Source: Falseniella ignava CCUG 37419
GTDB lineage: Bacteria; Bacillota; Bacilli; Lactobacillales; Aerococcaceae
Assembly (NCBI RefSeq): GCF_000301055.1
Contig: NZ_JH932300.1
Span: forward strand, 1 to 64,000
DNA: 64,000 bases
Reading direction: 5' to 3'
In this document: piece after piece, positions 5,416-31,919 of the stretch
Layout: every line of letters begins with the position of its first letter
Position numbering within the stretch: position 1 is the stretch's first letter
Made by a program: the position numbers and the translations under genes
Notes under the pieces: model-generated
What the model was told of the DNA's origin: nothing
Databases searched by the model: none
The model's input: the letters and a program-made list of their open reading frames with translations, nothing else

Positions 5416-6045
5416 TTATTTTTTATTCAAATATACGTTCGATAGATTACTTACATCAATTTTGTATCCTTCTTCTAGCTTGAGTTCCATTTGATCTACG
5501 CCTCTGAACATATTTTCACCAAGAATTTCAGTGGTAACAAGGTATCCATCTTTATCAGTTACAAATACATTGCCAGACTGTTCTTTTTCTGTTGTCGCAA
5601 TATATGTACCCGGTTCAACGTCAATTCCAACAATCCAAAATCCTGCATGGATTTCTTCGTGCTTCTCCTCAGGACCAACCGGTGTAAAGGTGACTGAATC
5701 CAATCCTATAATTTCAATTTTTTCGCCCCCGGTCAGATACACCCTAATTTGTTCGACCCCACCGAAATGATTAAAGCCAAGCACTTCATTAAGAAGAAGA
5801 GTGGATTTATCTTTTTGGTATATCATTATATTTCCACTATCTTCTTCGTCTGATGGTTTAATATTATATCTACCTGGCTCAATATCTTCTCCTACGATCC
5901 ATTCTCCCGAAGAAAGTTCGGTGGGCTTGATATTTTGTGAAGAAGTGATTAATGCTTCATAATCTGTTAATTCTAATCCATATGCAACTGCAGAATGACT
6001 GTTAAATAAGCATACAAAAACTAACGTCAGTAACAATTTTTTCAT
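5416..6045 (-). CDS. secreted protein of two tandem repeat modules, function unknown
   Basis: The 209-residue product begins with a signal peptide: basic start MKK, a hydrophobic core to about residue 18, and a likely cut near A19-A21. The rest is two copies of a module of roughly 75-80 residues. Each begins with G-x-WIVG-x-D-(I/V)-EPG-x-Y, followed by SGN(I/V), a KD stretch, an (N/T)E(V/I)LG block and GV(E/D)Q. The repeated WIVG..EPG..Y core resembles small beta-rich repeats seen in Firmicute surface proteins, but I do not recognise a named function. The start is set by GAGGGA upstream of ATG. Divergence between the copies shows an old duplication. The gene is monocistronic and shares a terminator region with tRNA-Thr. 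Confidence 0.8.
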   Translation of the reverse strand: MKKLLLTLVFVCLFNSHSAVAYGLELTDYEALITSSQNIKPTELSSGEWIVGEDIEPGRYNIKPSDEEDSGNIMIYQKDKSTLLLNEVLGFNHFGGVEQIRVYLTGGEKIEIIGLDSVTFTPVGPEEKHEEIHAGFWIVGIDVEPGTYIATTEKEQSGNVFVTDKDGYLVTTEILGENMFRGVDQMELKLEEGYKIDVSNLSNVYLNKK

Positions 6046-23076: not shown

Positions 23077-23134
23077 TTATCAAATGTTAGAACTCTAACA
23101 TTTGATAACGATTACATGTGGCATACTGTAGTCA
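23077..23134 (+). promoter_or_regulatory. CRP/FNR-type operator and predicted grd promoter
   Basis: A perfect 14-base inverted repeat, TTATCAAATGTTAG at 23077-23090 and CTAACATTTGATAA at 23095-23108, has a 4-base centre. It contains TGTTA-N6-TAACA with AAA/TTT flanks, the same layout as the CRP consensus TGTGA-N6-TCACA. A -10-like CATACT lies at 23122-23127. A start at about 23134 puts the palindrome centre at -41.5, the class II activator position. The only CRP-family gene in the window is at the far end of this locus (28633). The pairing of the two is inference. Confidence 0.7.
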
Positions 23135-23159: not shown

Positions 23160-23531
23160 ATGAAGGAGCGTCAAGTTGCGATCATTTCTAACAATCGATT
23201 AATTCAAGATCGTTTTGAAAACGTTATTAGTATTGATGGCGACTTTCGGGATGTATTACTTAAGGTGAGAGATTATATTCACCTTAATTACCGGCCGGTT
23301 ACGCATCCCCTTCCTTCTTCGAGTCGAATGTTTCTTTCACCGATACGTACAATTATTTTAACAAAAGGAATGCTTAGCGATTCAATTGAAGTAATTGAAA
23401 GTTCAATCCAAAAGTATGACACTACACTTGGAGAGCGTCAGCCGGATTGGGCGCATCGTGAAGATTATGAGTTGATCGATGCCGAACTCTTCCAATCTTC
23501 TCTTGCAGAGATAGGCTATCTCTTTAGTTAA
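23160..23531 (+). CDS. grdX: GrdX family protein
   Basis: The 123-residue product matches the GrdX pattern known from clostridial glycine-reductase operons: an initial (I/V)ISNN start, a central strand, then DVLLKVRDYIHLNYRPVTHPLPSS and IRTIILTK. GrdX has no known biochemical role but is a reliable companion of Grd genes. ATG 23160 with AGAGAGG upstream is preferred over an upstream in-frame GTG at 23118. It is the first gene of the locus, behind the CRP-type palindrome, and is followed by the amidase after 67 bases. Confidence 0.85.
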   Translation: MKERQVAIISNNRLIQDRFENVISIDGDFRDVLLKVRDYIHLNYRPVTHPLPSSSRMFLSPIRTIILTKGMLSDSIEVIESSIQKYDTTLGERQPDWAHREDYELIDAELFQSSLAEIGYLFS

Positions 23532-23598
23532 GGTGATGTACAAGAAGTAACTGTTGATTACATGTCTTAAAATAATAAAAATACGGAGGTTTGCAACA

Positions 23599-24357
23599 AT
23601 GGCTGAAAACAAAGATTACAAATTCGTAGATGAGTATGGTTTTAATGAAGAAGCACTTAAAGAAGCATTTGCTGAAGCGCGTCGTATTTATAAAGAGCGT
23701 GGATTCATGCGTGAGATGGGTGTAGGTAAAGCACCTGCAATCACAACAGTTGACATGGCTAAAGCGTGGATGTCTGAAGGACACCCATTCACATGTAACC
23801 ATGCGGAAGAAGTATGTGCGAATGCACTGAAAGTTCTTAACGCAGCTCGTAAATCAGGAGTGCCAATTTTCCATACAACGACAGGTTATGTAGGAACTGA
23901 ACAATGGGATCTTCCTCGTTGGGATGAGAAAATTCCTATGCACTCATTAGATATTAACTCTCACTGGATGGAAATTGATCCGAAATTAGAACCAAGACCA
24001 GAAGAGCCAGTGATTCACAAAAAGTTTGCATCTAACTTCTTTGGTACTCACTTAGCATCAACCTTAACTTACTTAGGTGTTGATACGGTAATCGTTATGG
24101 GTGCTACAGCTTGTGCATGTGTACGCCATACTGCGATGGATTCTACAGGATATGGATTCAAGACATTAATTCCTGAAGGAACAATTGGAGACCGTGTACC
24201 AGGTGTTATCGAGTGGAACTTATTCGATATCGAAGCTAAATTCGGTGACGTATGGCCAGTAGACAAAGTGGTTGAATACTTAGAAGGTATCGACCCATCT
24301 GTATACCGCCGTCCAGAGCGTCGTGACGAAGAAAAAGTTAAAGCTGTTGACGCATAG
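23599..24357 (+). CDS. N-carbamoylsarcosine amidase-like cysteine hydrolase
   Basis: The 252-residue protein is of the isochorismatase-like superfamily. The catalytic triad is visible: Asp52 (ITTVDMAKAW), Lys141 or Lys142 (HKKFASNFFGTHL) and Cys174 (GATACACVRHTAMDSTGYGF). The C-V-R-H-T block is the mark of N-carbamoylsarcosine amidase, which splits N-carbamoylsarcosine into sarcosine, CO2 and ammonia. Related enzymes act on N-carbamoyl-D-amino acids or ureidoacrylate. Its neighbours, a hydantoinase and a sarcosine/glycine-type reductase, make N-carbamoylsarcosine or N-carbamoylglycine the most likely substrate. ACGGAGGT lies 8 bases before ATG. Confidence 0.87.
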   Translation: MAENKDYKFVDEYGFNEEALKEAFAEARRIYKERGFMREMGVGKAPAITTVDMAKAWMSEGHPFTCNHAEEVCANALKVLNAARKSGVPIFHTTTGYVGTEQWDLPRWDEKIPMHSLDINSHWMEIDPKLEPRPEEPVIHKKFASNFFGTHLASTLTYLGVDTVIVMGATACACVRHTAMDSTGYGFKTLIPEGTIGDRVPGVIEWNLFDIEAKFGDVWPVDKVVEYLEGIDPSVYRRPERRDEEKVKAVDA

Positions 24358-24402
24358 TTAAGCCGTATTACCAATCGGTAATCAATGCTAAGGAGTGAAA
24401 TA

Positions 24403-25819
24403 ATGGGATTATTAATTAAAAATGGCCGAATCGTTACTCCTACGTCAGAATATATTGCAGATATCTTAGTTGAAAATGAAAAAAATTGAGTTAGTCGGTG
24501 AAAATATCCCAGAAGATGGTCATGAAGTTGTCGATGCCTCCGGGAAATATGTATTTCCTGGAGGGGTTGATAACCATGTTCATATGGGACCATTTGATAC
24601 CTATGGCTTTGAGACATCCCATGCTGCACTAGTAGGGGGGACTACGACATTAGTTGACTTTGCCCCTCAAGACAAGGGCAAGGGTGTTATCGAGTCGATG
24701 CATCGTCATAAAGACGAAAAAGCAGATGGGATTGCATCAGTAGACTATTCTTTCCATGGAATGGTAATGGATACTTCTGAAGCTGTTTTAGATGAAATAC
24801 CAAAAATGGTAGAAAATGGCATTGTCAACTTGAAATTTTTCATGGCATACAACGGAACACCTTTCCACGTTGAAGATGACTTAATCTTCAAGGCGATGCA
24901 GCTCTGTAGAGATCATGGGATTACTGTGATGACTCACTGTGAAAATGGCGACATGATTGAAGTGTTGGTCGACGAATTACATGCAATGGGGCAAAAAGCA
25001 CCAATTAACCATTCATACTCTCGTCCACCGCTAGTTGAAGATGAAGCGACACAACGCGCGATTTATTTAGCAGAGATGGCAGATTGTCCTCTGTTCGTCG
25101 TTCATGTTACTTCTAAAGGGGCGCTGAAGAACTTAGTCAGGGCAGCTCGCGAAGGTAAAGATGTTTATGGAGAAACGTGTGCGCATTATTTAACATTAGA
25201 TGAATCATTCTTCTTGAAAGATAATTTTGAAGGAGCCAAATATGTTTGTGCGCCTGCTTTAAGAACGAAAGACCACTTAGAAGCTTTATGGAAAGCGGTG
25301 AAAAATGACGAGCTTAAAGCGATTTCGTCAGACCATGCCGCAGTCGTAGGTGGTTTTGAAGCGAAGAAAAAGGGTATCGATGATTTTGCGAAGATTCCTA
25401 ACGGAGCACCAGGTATGCAAGATCGACTTCATATGATCTGGACTCAAGGTGTTGAAAAAGGCAAAATTACGCCTCAAGACTTTGTGCGCTTATGTATGGA
25501 GAACCCAGCTAAAATTTGTGGAATTTATCCTCAAAAAGGAGCGATCTTACCGGGATCTGATGCAGATATCTTAATTTGGGACCCTGAGTATGAAGGCGTT
25601 ATTACTCACGCGAATAGCTATGAAGGAACCGACTACGCATTGTATGAAGGTTTCGAACAAAAAGGTCGTGCAGATAAAGTATATCTTCGCGGAAACCTTG
25701 TTGCTGAAAAAGGTGAGTTCGTAGGTGAAAAAGGTACAGGTAAATATATCGAACCTAAACCATACGCTTTATGTTATCAAAATTATAAACCTAAAGAAGA
25801 TAAAAGAATTAGAGCATAG
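24403..25819 (+). CDS. hydantoinase/dihydropyrimidinase family, apparent frameshift at A7
   Basis: The enzyme is a zinc amidohydrolase opening cyclic ureides (hydantoin, N-methylhydantoin, dihydropyrimidines) to N-carbamoyl amino acids. The true start, ATG 24403 with AAGGAGTG, gives MGLLIKNGRIVTPTSEYIAD and runs into a stop. The body continues one frame over from about 24480 (a TTG at 24470 is the formal start there). The two join at seven A's at 24479-24485. With six A's the protein reads VENEKIELVGENIPEDG without a break, about 471 residues. Metal motifs are DNHVHMG, carbamylated Lys in NLKFFMAYNG, THCENGD, FVVHVTSKGAL and SSDHAAV. The shift may be a real mutation, slippage-corrected expression or a sequencing error. 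Confidence 0.88.
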
Positions 25820-25842
25820 TGCTCAATTCAAGCATACAGAAA

Positions 25843-25878
25843 AGAAGGGGGATTGTTTCGGCAATTCCTCTTTTATAA
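25843..25878 (+). terminator. hairpin between hydantoinase and the component B genes
   Basis: Thirteen pairs with several G-T wobbles, AAGAAGGGGGATTG against CAATTCCTCTTTT, and a 6-base loop. The T-run is partly inside the stem and continues TTTTATAAT. It may attenuate read-through into the reductase genes or be an mRNA processing hairpin. TATAAT at 25874 could also be a -10 box. Confidence 0.5.
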
Positions 25879-25903
25879 TCAGATAAATTGAAGAGGTGAT
25901 AAG

Positions 25904-27187
25904 ATGAAGTTAGAGCTACAAGAAATTGTAATTAATGATGTAAAATTTGGTGATCAAACAGCAGTACAAGACCAAACATTAATCATTAATCAAACAGAAA
26001 TGGCGGAGTATTTAGCAAAAATAGATTATGTTAAAGAAGTCACCATTGATCTGGCTCGTCCAGGCGAACGCGTTCGGATTATTCCGGTAAAAGACTGTAT
26101 TGAGCCACGCTATCGTGTCGATGGCGAATCGTCATTCCCAGGTGTGACTGGTCCTGCAGAACAAACAGGTGACGGCGTCACGAAAGTGATGAAAAATGTA
26201 GCGGTCGTAACTGTAGGGGACATTGTTGGTTTCCAAGAAGGGATTATCGATATGTGGGGCGAAGGGGCCAAATGGACACCATTTTCTAAAACATTGAATG
26301 TGGTTGTTGATATCGTACCTGAAGAGGGAATCGAGCCACATGTTCATGAGGAAACGTGTCGAATCGTGGGACTGAAGGCCAGTGAATATTTAGGTCGAGT
26401 GCTAAAAGAACATGAACCTGACAATGTTAAAGTTTATGAAGTCGAAGACCTTGTAACAGGATTAGATAAACATAAAGGACTACCACGCGTAGCTTATGTG
26501 CAAATGATGATTGCTCAAGGCTTACTTCATGATGGGTACGTCTATGGTGTCGACATTAAGAATTCATTGCCAACCTTACTGAATCCTCTGGAAGAAATTG
26601 ACGGTGCAGTGATTTCCGGGAACTGTGTGGCAGCCTGTGATAAAATCACAACTTACCAACATCAAAATAATGCGGTAGTCAAAGAATTACTTGAACTTCA
26701 TGGCAAAGAGCTTAACTTCGTTGGACTCATTGTGGTACCAGAGTTGACTACCCTTGATGGAAAATATCGTACGCGAGATTTTACTGTGAAGTTATGTAAG
26801 ATGCTTGAAGTAGATGGGGTTATTATCTCTGAAGAAGGATATGGTAATCCAGACTCAGACTTAGTTATGATTTGTGAAGGCGTTGAACAAGCTGGAATTA
26901 AGTCCGTATTAATTACCGACGAATGTTCAGGTTGGGATGGTGATTCACAACCATTAACAGATACGAAAGAAGAAGCTGTTGCTGTTATCTCAACAGGTAA
27001 CGTGTCGCATCTAGTGCATCTAGAAGCCGCTGAGAGAGTCTTAGGAGACGAGAATGCGGTTGCTAACTTAGCTGGTGGTTGGGAAGGTAGCTTAGCTGAA
27101 GATGGTACGATGACCGTTGAGCTAAACGCCGTCATCGGAGCCACGTCTGAAATAGGTTATCATAACTTAACCGTAGAAGAAGTGTAA
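25904..27187 (+). CDS. glycine/sarcosine/betaine reductase component B, alpha/beta proprotein (GrdE/GrdG-like)
   Basis: The 427-residue product matches the proprotein of component B along its length: LARPGERVRIIPVKDCIEPR, VVTVGDIVGFQEGIIDMWG, TPFSKTLNVVVDI, ARLxGLKASEYLG-like, QGLLHDGYVYG, AVISGNCVAACDKITTYQHQNN, DGVIISEEGYGNPD and EIGYHNLTVEE at the end. Family members are cut before the Cys of the SGNC motif (Cys241 here), which becomes the pyruvoyl group that forms a Schiff base with the amine substrate. GAGGTGAT precedes ATG. The partner selenoprotein starts 12 bases later. Neighbours favour sarcosine as substrate. Glycine or betaine cannot be excluded by sequence reading alone. Confidence 0.93.
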   Translation: MKLELQEIVINDVKFGDQTAVQDQTLIINQTEMAEYLAKIDYVKEVTIDLARPGERVRIIPVKDCIEPRYRVDGESSFPGVTGPAEQTGDGVTKVMKNVAVVTVGDIVGFQEGIIDMWGEGAKWTPFSKTLNVVVDIVPEEGIEPHVHEETCRIVGLKASEYLGRVLKEHEPDNVKVYEVEDLVTGLDKHKGLPRVAYVQMMIAQGLLHDGYVYGVDIKNSLPTLLNPLEEIDGAVISGNCVAACDKITTYQHQNNAVVKELLELHGKELNFVGLIVVPELTTLDGKYRTRDFTVKLCKMLEVDGVIISEEGYGNPDSDLVMICEGVEQAGIKSVLITDECSGWDGDSQPLTDTKEEAVAVISTGNVSHLVHLEAAERVLGDENAVANLAGGWEGSLAEDGTMTVELNAVIGATSEIGYHNLTVEEV

Positions 27188-27198
27188 GGAGGTGTCAC

Positions 27199-28497
27199 AT
27201 GAAAAAAGTATTATACTATGTTAACCAGTTCTTTGGACAAATCGGGGGTGAAGATCAAGCCCATATCGAACCACGACTTGTAGAAGGAACCGTGGGTCCT
27301 TCAATGGCCTTTTCGAATATGTTAGAAGGTGCGGAAGTCTCACATACGATTATTTGTGGGGATAACTACTTTAATGAAAATAAAGAAGCCGCTATGAAGT
27401 TTGTGCAAGATGCATTTGAGGAGGTTCAACCTGATCTAGTCGTTGCAGGTCCTGCATTCAATGCGGGACGTTACGGTATGGCGGTTGCAGGGGTAGCTGA
27501 AGCGCTTAAAGGTAAAGTGCCGATTTTGACTTCCATGTATGAGGAAAACCCTGGGGTTGATGCGTGTCGTTCCATTGCATATATTGTTCCAACTGGAGAG
27601 TCCGCAGCAGCGATGCGAAAAACATTGCCTGCTTTAGCCGAATTAGCGAACAAAATTCTAGCAGGTAAAGCGGTCAAAGCCAAGGAAGATGGCTATATGC
27701 TTCAAGGACGCCGCTTGACAATTCATGCGGAAGATATTGGGGCTCGACGCGCAGTCAATATGTTGGTAAAACGTTTCAAGGGAGAAGAATTTGAGACAGA
27801 ACTACCAATGCCAGAATTTGATTATGTGGATCCGGCAGCACCGATCGCTGATCTATCGAAGGCCACGATTGCACTTGTAACGACCGGGGGGATGGTTCCG
27901 AATGGAAACCCTGATCACTTACAATCTGCTTCAGCCCAAAAATGGGTAAAATATGATGTTTCAAGCTTAGATGAACTGAAAGGTGTCTATCAAACTGTTC
28001 ACGGTGGGTTTGACCCTGTCTATGCTAATGAACGTGCTGACCGTGTGGCGCCACTGGATGAATTGAAGCGTCTCGAAAAAGAAGGCAAGATTGGCAAAGT
28101 GTTTGAATACTTCTATTCAACAACGGGAACTGGGACATCGGTTGCGAACTCTGAAAAGTTTGGTCAAGAAATTGGGAAGGAATTGAAAGAATCCGGAGTT
28201 GATGGCGTGATTCTAACTTCCACTTGAGGGACCTGTACACGTTGCGGAGCAACGATGGTAAAAGAAATCGAGCGGTACGGGTTACCGATCGTCCATATGG
28301 CAACGATTACTACGATTTCAGAATCAGTTGGAGCTAACCGAATTGTTCCAACGGTAGCAATACCTTACCCGGTGGGTAATCCTGAATTAGGCACGAATGA
28401 AGACCGTCAGGTGCGCGATGAGCTTGTTGAACGAGCAGTAGAATCATTGGCCACTGCAGTTGAAAAACCTACGGTTTTCCAAAAAGCGAGCCATTAA
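27199..28497 (+). CDS. selenoprotein component B gamma subunit (GrdB/GrdF-like), in-frame UGA = Sec343
   Basis: Read through the UGA at 28225-28227, the 432-residue product is full length. It starts VLYYVNQFFGQIGGEDQ, has IICGDNYFNEN, VAGPAFNAGRYG, SMYEENPG, VTTGGMVPNGNPD and TTGTGTSVANS. The active site is TSTUGTCTRCGATMVKEIE, where family members have Sec-x-x-Cys-x-x-Cys. The C-terminal SVGANRIVPTVAIPYPVGNP is intact. The enzyme reductively cleaves the bound amine (sarcosine to methylamine), forming a carboxymethyl-selenoether on component A. A hairpin suited to Sec insertion follows the UGA. A gene caller ending at the UGA would truncate it to 342 residues and miss the active site. AAGGAGGTGTCAC precedes ATG. 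Confidence 0.94.
28228..28259 (+). promoter_or_regulatory. predicted bacterial SECIS element of the component B selenoprotein
   Basis: A 6-base perfect stem, CGTTGC at 28240-28245 and GCAACG at 28249-28254, closes a GGA loop. A lower helix, ACC (28231-28233) with GGT (28257-28259), flanks an internal loop. The loop starts 19 bases after the UGA, with G's at its tip, within the range known for SelB-binding hairpins. Confidence 0.75.
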
Positions 28498-28512
28498 TTT
28501 ATTTGATTTTCG

Positions 28513-28546
28513 ACCTCTTAAATGCGGTGCATTTGAGAGGTTTTTT
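28513..28546 (+). terminator. terminator of the grd-type operon
   Basis: Thirteen-pair hairpin, ACCTCTTAAATGC and GCATTTGAGAGGT with GGT loop, followed by TTTTTT. Confidence 0.93.
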
Positions 28547-28569
28547 GTATAGAAAAATTATTTGATTGA

Positions 28570-28583
28570 TGAAAACGTTTTTG
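28570..28583 (+). promoter_or_regulatory. possible CcpA (cre) site before the Crp-like gene
   Basis: TGAAAACGTTTTTG matches 12 of 14 positions of the cre consensus TGWAARCGYTWNCW and overlaps a TTGATA that could be a -35 box. This suggests, weakly, catabolite control of the regulator. Confidence 0.35.
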
Positions 28584-28632
28584 ATATATTGTAAAGTATA
28601 AAATAAATATTATGAAAGGCAGGAGTACTAGA

Positions 28633-29301
28633 ATGTATAAAGAACTACTTGATTTTCATATATTTGAAGGCATCTCTGAACAATCGAAAGAGAGAATCAT
28701 GAAAATTCCGATTCTTTATAAAGAATATGAAGCGGAAGAAATAGTTTCTTTTTTTGGAGAAGAGCTTAAATATATTCATTTTATTTTAAAAGGTACTTTA
28801 AAAACAACAGAGTATTCCATTCAAGGAAGAGAAATCGTCTCGTCATATTATCCTAAACGAAGTATCTTCCCATTTTACTTACTTTATTCTGGTGCTCAAA
28901 CTCAGCCTTACAATATCACTTGCTTTAAAGATGCTCAGGTCATCCATGTCCCTGCAACATGACTCGACAAAGTGATCCGGGACGATCCACAACTTATGTT
29001 GAATATCATAAAATTCATCTCAGAATACTGTTATTATAACAAACGAGTAATTCGAACTACGATATATTCAAAGGTAATTGAACGTCTTGCCTTTTGGTTA
29101 CTCACTTCTAATGAAATAGCCCCGAACAAGATTCTTATGCCGGGAACGCAGGCCGTGTTTGCGGATATACTTCAAACATCCCGCTCGACATTGAATCAAG
29201 AGTTACAAAAATTAAAAGAGGTAGGTGCTATTTCAGTTAAAGGCTCCTATATTTCAATCCATAATCGAGAATATTTAGAAAAGATCATTGGAGACGCTTA
29301 G
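28633..29301 (+). CDS. Crp/Fnr-family regulator with in-frame UGA at codon 110 (candidate selenoprotein)
   Basis: ATG 28633, with GGCAGGAG 8 bases upstream, is the best start. Read through the single UGA (28960-28962), the frame is open for 222 residues with normal Crp layout. The N-terminal beta-roll (about 10-105) is followed by the helix start VPAT-U110-LDKVIRDDP and a dimerisation helix to about 155. The C-terminal winged helix-turn-helix reads GTQAVFADILQTSRSTLNQELQKLKEVGAIS (171-201). Both halves keep family pattern, with no shift or other stop. Cys97 and Cys133 could partner U110 in a redox switch. A SECIS-like hairpin follows the UGA. The alternative is a simple nonsense mutation splitting the gene. 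Confidence 0.8.
28972..28990 (+). promoter_or_regulatory. SECIS-like hairpin after the UGA of the Crp-like gene
   Basis: GTGATC (28972-28977) pairs with GATC-CAC (28984-28990) with one bulged C, closing the loop CGGGAC. The loop starts 16 bases after the UGA, and its G's are at 17-19 bases, against 19-20 in the neighbouring grd gene. Short hairpins arise by chance, so this is supportive rather than conclusive. Confidence 0.5.
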
Positions 29302-29395: not shown

Positions 29396-30235
29396 TTAGC
29401 TGTTTTTCTTACGGTGACGCTCACCGAAGCCTAATAAGCTATAGCGTTTACGGTATTCCGTAGGGGTACAATGATTGGCTTCTTTAAAGGTCTTAGTAAA
29501 GTGAGAAGGTGAGTGGAATCCAACCATATCTGAAATATCTGAAACTTTAGTATCGGTCTGTGATAAGAGGCGTTCGCCTTCTTGAAGTCGTACATGAATT
29601 AAATAATCAATGGGTGAAAGACCTGTCTTCTGTTTGAACAATCGGATTAAGTAGTACTTATTAATACCGACTAATTCTGAAAGTTGAGACAGAGTGATTT
29701 TGTGCATGTAGTTTTCACTAATAAAATCAAGCAATTTATCGATATCATCGTGCTTTATCTTAATGCTGGCATCTTTAATCGATAAGCTATCATTGCGTAA
29801 GATATGAACGAGCATTGATTCAGTTATTTTTCGTAAAATCATATCCGTTCCGCGGAATGGATTGGCTTGTTCGAGTACTGCCAATTCGAGGTAATCACGA
29901 ATAAGTCCTGACTCATCTATAGAGGTAAAGACGGCTTGTTTTGAGTTAATATCATTGCTAGAAGTAAATAAAATTCCCTGAAGGGTAATCATCGTGCAAT
30001 CAATATTCCGAATAGCTTTGAGATAAACTTCTGTTTGCGGGTTGACAATTAATATTCCACGTTTAGCTAAATCCCCGCTCAACCCACTATCTTCGTAGCT
30101 CGCTGCTCCTTTGTTGATATAGCAGATAATCACATTGTCGTCCGAGTAAATTCGTTCGACATCTCCTACCGAGATAGCGGTATGCTCAACCGACTGTAAA
30201 TTAATCGATGATGAACTAATGTTAGAGATATACAT
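29396..30235 (-). CDS. AraC-family transcriptional regulator
   Basis: The 279-residue protein has an N-terminal sensing domain with strand-like stretches (about 1-170). The C-terminal pair of AraC helix-turn-helices (about 180-270) reads LSQLSELVGINKYYLIRLFKQKTGLSPIDYLIHVRLQEG then VSDISDMVGFHSPSHFTKTFKEANHCTPTEYRK. The ligand is unknown. It is convergent with the Crp-like gene and has its own AAAGGAG ribosome site. It could act on the grd-type locus or on nagB, but nothing in the sequence decides. Confidence 0.9.
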   Translation of the reverse strand: MYISNISSSSINLQSVEHTAISVGDVERIYSDDNVIICYINKGAASYEDSGLSGDLAKRGILIVNPQTEVYLKAIRNIDCTMITLQGILFTSSNDINSKQAVFTSIDESGLIRDYLELAVLEQANPFRGTDMILRKITESMLVHILRNDSLSIKDASIKIKHDDIDKLLDFISENYMHKITLSQLSELVGINKYYLIRLFKQKTGLSPIDYLIHVRLQEGERLLSQTDTKVSDISDMVGFHSPSHFTKTFKEANHCTPTEYRKRYSLLGFGERHRKKNS

Positions 30236-30352
30236 CGATTCGCTCCTTTCTATATATTATATTCGTTTCATTTAAACTATATATCCATAATATAATGATA
30301 TTATAAAAATGAACCTCTATCAACAAATTTTTTCAAAAAATATAAAAATTTT

Positions 30353-31207
30353 TTATCGCAAATTTATTTTGTTTCGCTTGCGATACTCCGTTGGTGTTAA
30401 GTGGTAAGTCCGCTTAAAGTAAGTTGCAAAGTAACTTTTTGAATGAAAACCGGATTCGTCTGCAATTTGTTGGACTGTAAGAGAAGAATTTCGAAGTAGG
30501 TTGCAAGCATGTTCAAGACGCAATTGAATCCAGTATTCTTGGGGAGAATAGCCTGTCTCGGCCTTAAATTGCGTCGAAAGAAACCAAGAGCTTCGCTGTA
30601 TATGATTCGCAACTTCTTGAATCGAAAGATCCGTCCGAAAATGATGATGAATATATAGGGTAGCTTGGTGGATTAATGGGGATAATGAGGGAAGATTAGG
30701 TTCTGAGTCATGAGTCCAATAACTAAGTAAGTGGTTGAAGACCATCGTTTGAAGTGTTTCAGTATTAGGAATATGTCTCAGATGATTGAGCGACTCGATT
30801 GATTTATGTAGAAGCATATCAAGGCCTTGAGAATGTTGAGAAGGGAGTATGGTAACGAAAGAAGTGTCAAAGGCTAGCATCGGTTGCGTCGGTGATTGGA
30901 GTTCGAAAGTCCAAATAACGTAGTTTAGTGGAGAATTCAGAGTAGTTTGTATTTTGTATCGCTGGTGCGGATTTATCCAGAAGGCTTGGGGATGGATGAC
31001 TTGAGTGGATTGATTGATCGTGTTGAGTAATCCAGAACCTCGAAGAATATAAAGTAATTGGTAATCTGTCGATTGAATCCACCGTGTCTGGTAGTCATCC
31101 GGAAGATGAAACTCACGATGACTCAATTTAATAACCAACGGATCAGTAGCTGCAGCATGATATGAACTGCAGCCATTGATCTGATGTGTACTAATTAACT
31201 CGCTCAT
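30353..31207 (-). CDS. AraC-family transcriptional regulator
   Basis: The product of 284 residues from ATG 31207 (296 if an overlapping upstream ATG at 31243 is used) has a cupin-like N-terminal domain and a C-terminal AraC DNA-binding pair: SIQEVANHIQRSSWFLSTQFKAETGYSPQEYWIQLRLEHA, then VQQIADESGFHSKSYFATYFKRTYHLTPTEYRKR. Neither start has a strong ribosome site, and the gene begins inside the 3' end of nagB, so translational coupling to nagB is likely. It may therefore sense an amino sugar or control its use, which is inference from position. It differs clearly from the AraC gene just downstream, so it is not a recent duplicate. Confidence 0.87.
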   Translation of the reverse strand: MSELISTHQINGCSSYHAAATDPLVIKLSHREFHLPDDYQTRWIQSTDYQLLYILRGSGLLNTINQSTQVIHPQAFWINPHQRYKIQTTLNSPLNYVIWTFELQSPTQPMLAFDTSFVTILPSQHSQGLDMLLHKSIESLNHLRHIPNTETLQTMVFNHLLSYWTHDSEPNLPSLSPLIHQATLYIHHHFRTDLSIQEVANHIQRSSWFLSTQFKAETGYSPQEYWIQLRLEHACNLLRNSSLTVQQIADESGFHSKSYFATYFKRTYHLTPTEYRKRNKINLR

Positions 31208-31919
31208 AATTTTCTGAGTTGAGTTGGCTGGCGGCGGCTTCATCTAAGAGAATGTAACAATCTGGGTGGTTTTGTAAGATACTGGCGGGAACTGCCTCAC
31301 TAACAGGTCCTTCAACGGTATCGTAGATGGCTTGTGCTTTATTTTCACCAAATGCCAGTAAAATAATCTTTTTCGCACTCATAATGGATTGGATTCCCAT
31401 TGAGTAAGCTTGTTTAGGGACATCTTCCATCCGTTCGAAGAAGCGTTGGTTGGCTTGAATGGTTGATTCGGTCAGGTCAACTAAGCTTGTTTTCGAATTA
31501 AAGGATGTCCCAGGTTCGTTAAAGCCAATATGCGCATTTTGTCCGATTCCTAAAATTTGCAGATCAATCGGGTTGTCTTCAATTAATTGGTCATAACGCG
31601 CCGTTTCTTGAAGCGGGTCGGTATTCGTCCCATCTGGTAAGTAATGATGTGCAAAGGGTTTTGCATGAAAGAGTTGTTCATTCATATAGTAAGCGTAGCT
31701 TTGAGGGTGATCGGCGCTCAGCCCGTAATATTCATCCAAGTTGATCGATGTTGCTTGTGTAAAGTCCAAGTCAGACTCACGTAGCAGTTGATACAGTGGC
31801 TCAGGTGTCGAACCAGTCGCTAGACCAAAGGTTGTGGCCCCGTCTTTTAAGGCTTGTTCAAACTGATTGTAAGCATATTGCGCAGCAGATTGAGCATTAT
31901 CGAATACGATGACTTTCAT
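31191..31919 (-). CDS. nagB: glucosamine-6-phosphate deaminase NagB
   Basis: The 242-residue enzyme converts glucosamine-6-phosphate to fructose-6-phosphate and ammonia. Motifs: LATGSTPEPLY, SINLDEYYGLSADHPQSY, LPDGTNTDP, LGIGQNAHIGFNEPGTSFNS and YSMGIQSIMSAKKIILLAFGENKA. GGAGGT precedes ATG. It overlaps the following AraC gene by 17 bases. It opposes GlmM and GlmU at the branch between amino-sugar use and wall synthesis. Confidence 0.95.
   Translation of the reverse strand: MKVIVFDNAQSAAQYAYNQFEQALKDGATTFGLATGSTPEPLYQLLRESDLDFTQATSINLDEYYGLSADHPQSYAYYMNEQLFHAKPFAHHYLPDGTNTDPLQETARYDQLIEDNPIDLQILGIGQNAHIGFNEPGTSFNSKTSLVDLTESTIQANQRFFERMEDVPKQAYSMGIQSIMSAKKIILLAFGENKAQAIYDTVEGPVSEAVPASILQNHPDCYILLDEAAASQLNSENYERVN

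Follow-up and report, generated by a model that had tools for sequence, protein, structure and literature searches.

A candidate selenocysteine-containing Crp-family activator beside a selenium-dependent reductase operon in Falseniella ignava

Gene organization of the grd locus

We analyzed a window of 64,000 nucleotides from Falseniella ignava CCUG 37419 (contig NZ_JH932300.1, positions 1 to 64,000), which contains a reductase (grd) operon followed by a Crp-family gene with a single in-frame UGA codon (Table 1). The operon opens with a grdX-like gene; since position 23118, where its frame begins, lies upstream of the predicted transcription start, the ATG at 23160 is probably the genuine start. 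The best NCBIfam model for the grdE/grdG-like subunit was sarcosine GrdG, and the best specific model for the grdF/grdB-like selenoprotein was sarcosine GrdF, although both matches fell below the strict cut-off. Collectively, the operon would encode component B of a glycine/sarcosine/betaine-type reductase together with an isochorismatase-family amidohydrolase and a hydantoinase, acting on a presumed substrate. This gene set matches the anaerobic route from N-methylhydantoin through sarcosine to acetyl-phosphate in Clostridium sp. FS41 (PMC4417704), and this route and the operon context suggest that the isochorismatase-family product is probably an N-carbamoylsarcosine amidohydrolase. The region 23160-28497 reads as a full N-methylhydantoin/sarcosine-type reductase operon; few of the searched Facklamia/Aerococcus-family genomes carry both the regulator and the operon.

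The first-pass annotation had placed the Crp-family gene (hereafter crp) just downstream of a selenoprotein gene, and this arrangement was confirmed: grdF and crp are separated by 135 bases (28498-28632) that include a strong terminator. An AGGAG sequence at 28621-28625 precedes the crp ATG at 28633. Directly downstream of crp, on the opposite strand, lie two AraC-family-like regulator genes in tandem (29396-31243).

Table 1. Features of the grd-crp locus in window coordinates
Feature	Position	Strand	Evidence
Operator TTATCAAATGTTAGAACTCTAACATTTGATAA, palindrome 30/32; core AATGTTA-N6-TAACATT at 23083-23102	23077..23108	.	Motif scan
Predicted -10 element CATACT, first base 29.5 bp from operator center	23122..23127	+	Offset common to eight promoters
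grdX-like gene, first of operon	23160..23531	+	NCBIfam GrdX 1.6e-30 on 23118 frame
Isochorismatase-family amidohydrolase, probable N-carbamoylsarcosine amidohydrolase	23554..24357, start uncertain	+	Pfam Isochorismatase 1.8e-23
Hydantoinase/dihydropyrimidinase family, probable N-methylhydantoin amidohydrolase (substrate inferred)	24470..25819	+	TIGR02033 9.6e-138, above cut-off
grdE/grdG-like reductase component B subunit	25904..27187	+	Pfam Gly_reductase 8.7e-185
grdF/grdB-like selenoprotein, Sec UGA 28225-28227	27199..28497	+	TIGR01918 8.3e-183, above cut-off
Intrinsic terminator between grdF and crp	28512..28542	+	14-pair stem, loop of 3, T-run
Candidate crp promoter TTGATT-17-TATATT, TG before -10	28562..28590	+	Consensus match only
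Crp-family activator gene with in-frame UGA	28633..29301	+	Reading frame, Pfam, structure model
In-frame UGA, codon 110, proposed selenocysteine	28960..28962	+	Frame, homologue comparison, six-frame scan
SECIS-like hairpin: apical stem GATC/GATC, loop CGGGAC, G at +17 to +19	28964..29002	+	Minimum-energy fold

A Crp-family regulator interrupted by a single UGA

As originally described, the crp gene is intact except for the TGA at codon 110 and would specify 222 residues if this codon is read. A six-frame scan of the 64-kb window for TGA codons flanked on both sides by at least 60 open codons returned only three candidates, namely crp, grdF and an unsupported frame at 5768. Both Pfam domains of the crp product, cNMP_binding (residues 30-117) and HTH_Crp_2 (150-218), scored above the gathering threshold. 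A stop at codon 110 would therefore delete the DNA-binding domain, in line with the initial reading.

The structure model of the product (pLDDT 87) matched CRP, FNR and NtcA structures with a Foldseek probability of 1.00. In this model, the UGA codon falls within helix B, a short segment (108-117) immediately preceding the dimer helix (119-142), which corrects the earlier placement of Sec110 at the start of the dimer helix. Cys133 lies within the dimer helix, and Cys97 is separated from helix B by the length of strand 95-107, about ten residues of extended chain. Given this distance, the direct pairing of Sec110 with Cys97 that had been proposed appears unlikely.

The protein shares the sensor beta-roll, dimer helix and Crp-type helix-turn-helix of CRP, FNR, NtcA and HcpR, and differs from this family in the UGA within helix B. 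It contains no cysteine before residue 97 and hence lacks the FNR-type N-terminal Fe-S cysteine cluster, and its scores fall far below the cut-offs of both the FNR model (31 bits versus 228) and the CRP equivalog PRK11753 (24.9 bits versus 266). Judged by these scores, the regulator is best placed as a member of the Crp/Fnr superfamily that is neither FNR nor CRP proper. Unlike CRP, FNR, NtcA and HcpR, it is apparently dedicated to one selenium-dependent operon.

A conserved predicted operator with class II geometry precedes the grd operon

Upstream of the operon, the motif scan identified a palindromic operator whose core, at 23083-23102, is the sole exact match in both the window and the whole genome. 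The same operator, with 0 to 2 mismatches, stands 5′ of the operon in F. lactis, Aerococcus, F. hominis, Anaerococcus and the genomes G525, G457 and G460. Across eight promoters, a -10-like hexamer occurs at a fixed offset of 29.5 bp, with 33 of 48 positions matching TATAAT versus at most 26 at any other offset. This spacing puts the operator at about -41.5 of the predicted promoter, which is the operator position of class II Crp-type activators at CRP-dependent promoters. The TGTTA-N6-TAACA pattern also shares its N6 spacing with CRP sites.

On the basis of protein family, gene neighborhood and co-occurrence, we infer that the Crp-family protein binds this operator. The suggestion that the regulator switches the reductase genes is accordingly strengthened by a predicted operator upstream of the operon and by its class II geometry. 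An exact operator core in the window leads one to expect a functional regulator, and retention of the operator in both genomes whose crp gene contains a UGA (see below) argues that both regulators work.

The other Crp protein found in the window genome (L002, 21% identical) was considered as the operator's regulator and rejected; in the region of its recognition helix it carries TTPESISRKFKEL, unlike the RSxLNQEL that is common to the window and F. lactis regulators. Sites with two mismatches were about as frequent genome-wide as those of a reversed control pattern, so no wider regulon is claimed, and a one-mismatch site (G000:C1:124096) was discarded as a target because it lies in front of a transposase-like ORF.

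Some homologues carry UGA or cysteine in the same helix

To identify relatives of the regulator, we searched 77 genomes of the window's own family. In addition, a single-sequence scan of genome contigs found no relative and an alignment-based scan found eight; a scan of viral contigs yielded none. The homologue nearest to the window protein, at 52% identity, comes from Facklamia lactis DSM 111018 (L022:8001-8663). It contains exactly one in-frame stop, again TGA, which in a gap-free alignment corresponds to window residue 114, four codons downstream of the window UGA. On the structure model, a single turn of helix B separates the two UGA codons.

Phylogenetic analysis placed the window and F. 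lactis regulators as sisters (support 94/90), with those of G525 (L089), Aerococcus and F. hominis forming their sister group. Within the latter, column 114 is occupied by Cys (TGT) in Aerococcus sp. HMSC062A02 and L089, and by Ile in F. hominis, which lacks both Cys and Sec in helix B and has kept the operator. In other family members, column 114 holds a hydrophobic residue, which is Ile or Val in almost every case. At column 110, close relatives carry E, Q, G or P, and none of the homologues has Cys. A UGA or Cys in homologues, which the first reading had asked about, is thus seen at the F. lactis position, column 114, and not at the window's own column 110. Cys97 and Cys133/134 are conserved within the clade.

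Identity between the window and F. lactis proteins amounts to 60% after the UGA versus 44% before it. Such conservation makes a long-decaying gene unlikely, although a very recent stop could still fit.

Selenocysteine machinery and a SECIS-like hairpin

Both SelB and tRNA-Sec exceeded their cut-offs in all nine tested genomes with close homologues; in two genomes whose relatives of the regulator are all remote, both fell short. In the window genome (G000), SelB reached 338.7 bits (cut-off 242) and tRNA-Sec 70.3 bits (cut-off 47), and UGA-containing grdA and two grdB-type genes were found. These hits fit the assertion that this cell decodes UGA as selenocysteine.

A hairpin with a G-rich loop had also been noted after the UGA, and it reappeared in the minimum-energy fold of the 45 bases 3′ of this codon, as a structure of about 39 nt whose apical loop, CGGGAC, starts at +16. 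Its G residues lie close to the GG that the genome's own grdA and grdB elements have at +18 (grdA) and +19 (grdB). Hairpins of this energy with GG in the same register were found for 1.2% of background codons and 2.1% of synonymous shuffles, by a criterion chosen once the sequence had been inspected. In F. lactis, the hairpin is short and has a GUU loop; about 9% of background codons reach its level. Fold energy over the 45 bases after the UGA set neither the two UGA genes nor true SECIS elements apart from shuffles (grdF z = -0.6) and, since it fails on the latter, was dropped as a test.

The UGA is probably read as selenocysteine

Taken together, these genomic features make it probable that the crp UGA is read as selenocysteine, in a working Crp-family activator. 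The gene resembles known selenoprotein families in its UGA followed by a SECIS-like hairpin, its Sec machinery, its relatives with Cys at column 114 and its grd neighbor.

Within this reading, Sec might serve purely as a chemical site that senses redox state, a metal or a selenium compound, with no gating of translation. This is a sub-case of the selenocysteine reading, and our judgements of the two overlap; taken by itself, we regard it as rather unlikely. It draws on the Cys that Aerococcus and G525 carry at column 114, exactly where F. lactis has UGA, and on the conservation of Cys97 and Cys133/134 in the clade. Against it, the window UGA stands at column 110, which is usually polar, and not at 114; F. 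hominis manages without a helix-B thiol; and, on the model, Cys97 is remote from helix B along its strand.

A competing account would be that both UGAs are recent, independent nonsense mutations and that the genes are decaying or yield truncated regulators. The unequal positions of the two UGAs and the unremarkable F. lactis hairpin would fit such an origin, as would the one further stop found among 24 aligned homologues. This stop, a TAG at column 113 and three columns from the window UGA, occurs in a distant paralogue, L096 (G414, L108:7699-8340), which adjoins isochorismatase/hydantoinase genes; its sister L100 has Glu at this column. Pyrrolysine was rejected as an explanation for the TAG, as no PylS (pyrrolysyl-tRNA synthetase) scored above cut-off in G414. 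The paralogue therefore shows that a stop in helix B can arise without Sec, which is the main caution attached to our reading. Nevertheless, nonsense mutation would have to strike once in each of two sister lineages, both of them Sec-decoding, produce UGA each time and fall within 4 of about 215 codons. It would also leave aside the Cys carried by relatives in the affected helix, the lack of frameshifts, the better conservation of the half after the UGA, and an operator kept in both genomes and near-perfect in the window. We therefore hold this alternative to be improbable.

Ordinary leaky read-through, or production of the C-terminal domain by reinitiation after the UGA, would likewise need no Sec. 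The window UGA is followed by C, and UGA followed by C is a leaky stop context; moreover, both genes have an in-frame GTG or ATG four to five codons past the UGA. No Shine-Dalgarno-like sequence precedes these starts, however, and neither route explains the Cys in relatives or the occurrence of the UGA genes in Sec-decoding genomes beside selenoprotein genes, which renders this account very improbable. A split crp gene was rejected similarly, as no ribosome-binding site was seen at the downstream starts and the 45 codons that follow the TAG of L096 include no start codon. A one-base sequencing or assembly error at the window UGA, where a single base change would restore a sense codon, is hardly credible given that UGA recurs within helix B in another genome that was sequenced independently.

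A possible selenium gate in translation

If codon 110 is decoded as selenocysteine, full-length activator would be made only when charged Sec-tRNA is at hand. The completed protein would then bind the grd operator as a dimer, recruit RNA polymerase in class II fashion and turn on the selenium-dependent reductase operon, so that expression of the operon would be confined to conditions in which its selenoproteins can be synthesized. Recoding of UGA in E. coli depends on adequate selenium and attains no more than 30-40% (PMC4513850); by analogy, the level of full-length activator would follow the selenium supply. A selenol or thiol in helix B may also make the protein responsive to redox state or to a ligand, and Sec110 itself might respond to redox state or selenium, as first suggested.

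The shift of the UGA between columns 110 and 114 favors the gate, and the Cys-containing relatives favor a chemical role of Sec. F. hominis shows that neither the gate nor a sensor residue is essential to the family. On balance, we advance only tentatively, with somewhat less than even confidence, the fuller proposal that this is the first Sec-containing DNA-binding transcription factor and that it acts as a selenium gate, a feed-forward AND gate in translation.

Nearly every bacterial selenoprotein known to date is a redox enzyme. Among the 119 prokaryotic selenoprotein families in Table 1 of a 2026 inventory, none is a regulator of the Crp or another helix-turn-helix type, and the sole "regulatory" entry is the FmdB family protein (PMC13188914). 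Our full-text search of open-licence papers also found no Sec-containing regulator of the Crp or any other helix-turn-helix type, which agrees with the initial statement that no Sec-containing Crp/Fnr regulator is known. A parallel exists in HrsM/LysR_Se, a selenium-responsive transcription regulator with a link to selenium-dependent gene expression (PMC9312934); it is selenium-linked like the window regulator, but it belongs to the LysR family, and that paper does not describe it as a Sec-containing protein.

A Sec-containing activator of a Sec-dependent operon, if confirmed, would extend selenocysteine to gene control and provide a simple form of bacterial selenium sensing, through a regulator impossible to complete without selenium. 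The operator, the Cys-containing relatives and F. hominis, which has neither residue, make a direct comparison possible.

Regulator neighborhoods in related genomes

The regulator adjoins the grd operon in most genomes examined. The F. lactis orthologue is the sister gene of the window crp and resembles it in its single UGA, operon and operator, and differs in the column of its UGA (114) and its weaker hairpin. It also stands behind a transporter-like gene, 12 bases beyond the grd cluster, whereas the window crp comes after a terminator. Directly upstream of the F. lactis grd operon (L022:1682-3441) lie genes for a corrinoid (B12-binding) protein and a URO-D-family methyltransferase-like protein, a pair that suggests a link to methylated amines. 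In Aerococcus sp. HMSC062A02, a second grdX-grdE-grdF-type set (L023:8753-11778, reverse strand) faces the first across the Crp gene. In Lagierella massiliensis and Mediannikoviicoccus vaginalis (L025, L028), a close relative of the regulator stands beside arginine-deiminase-type genes instead of a grd operon, which suggests a changed regulatory target.
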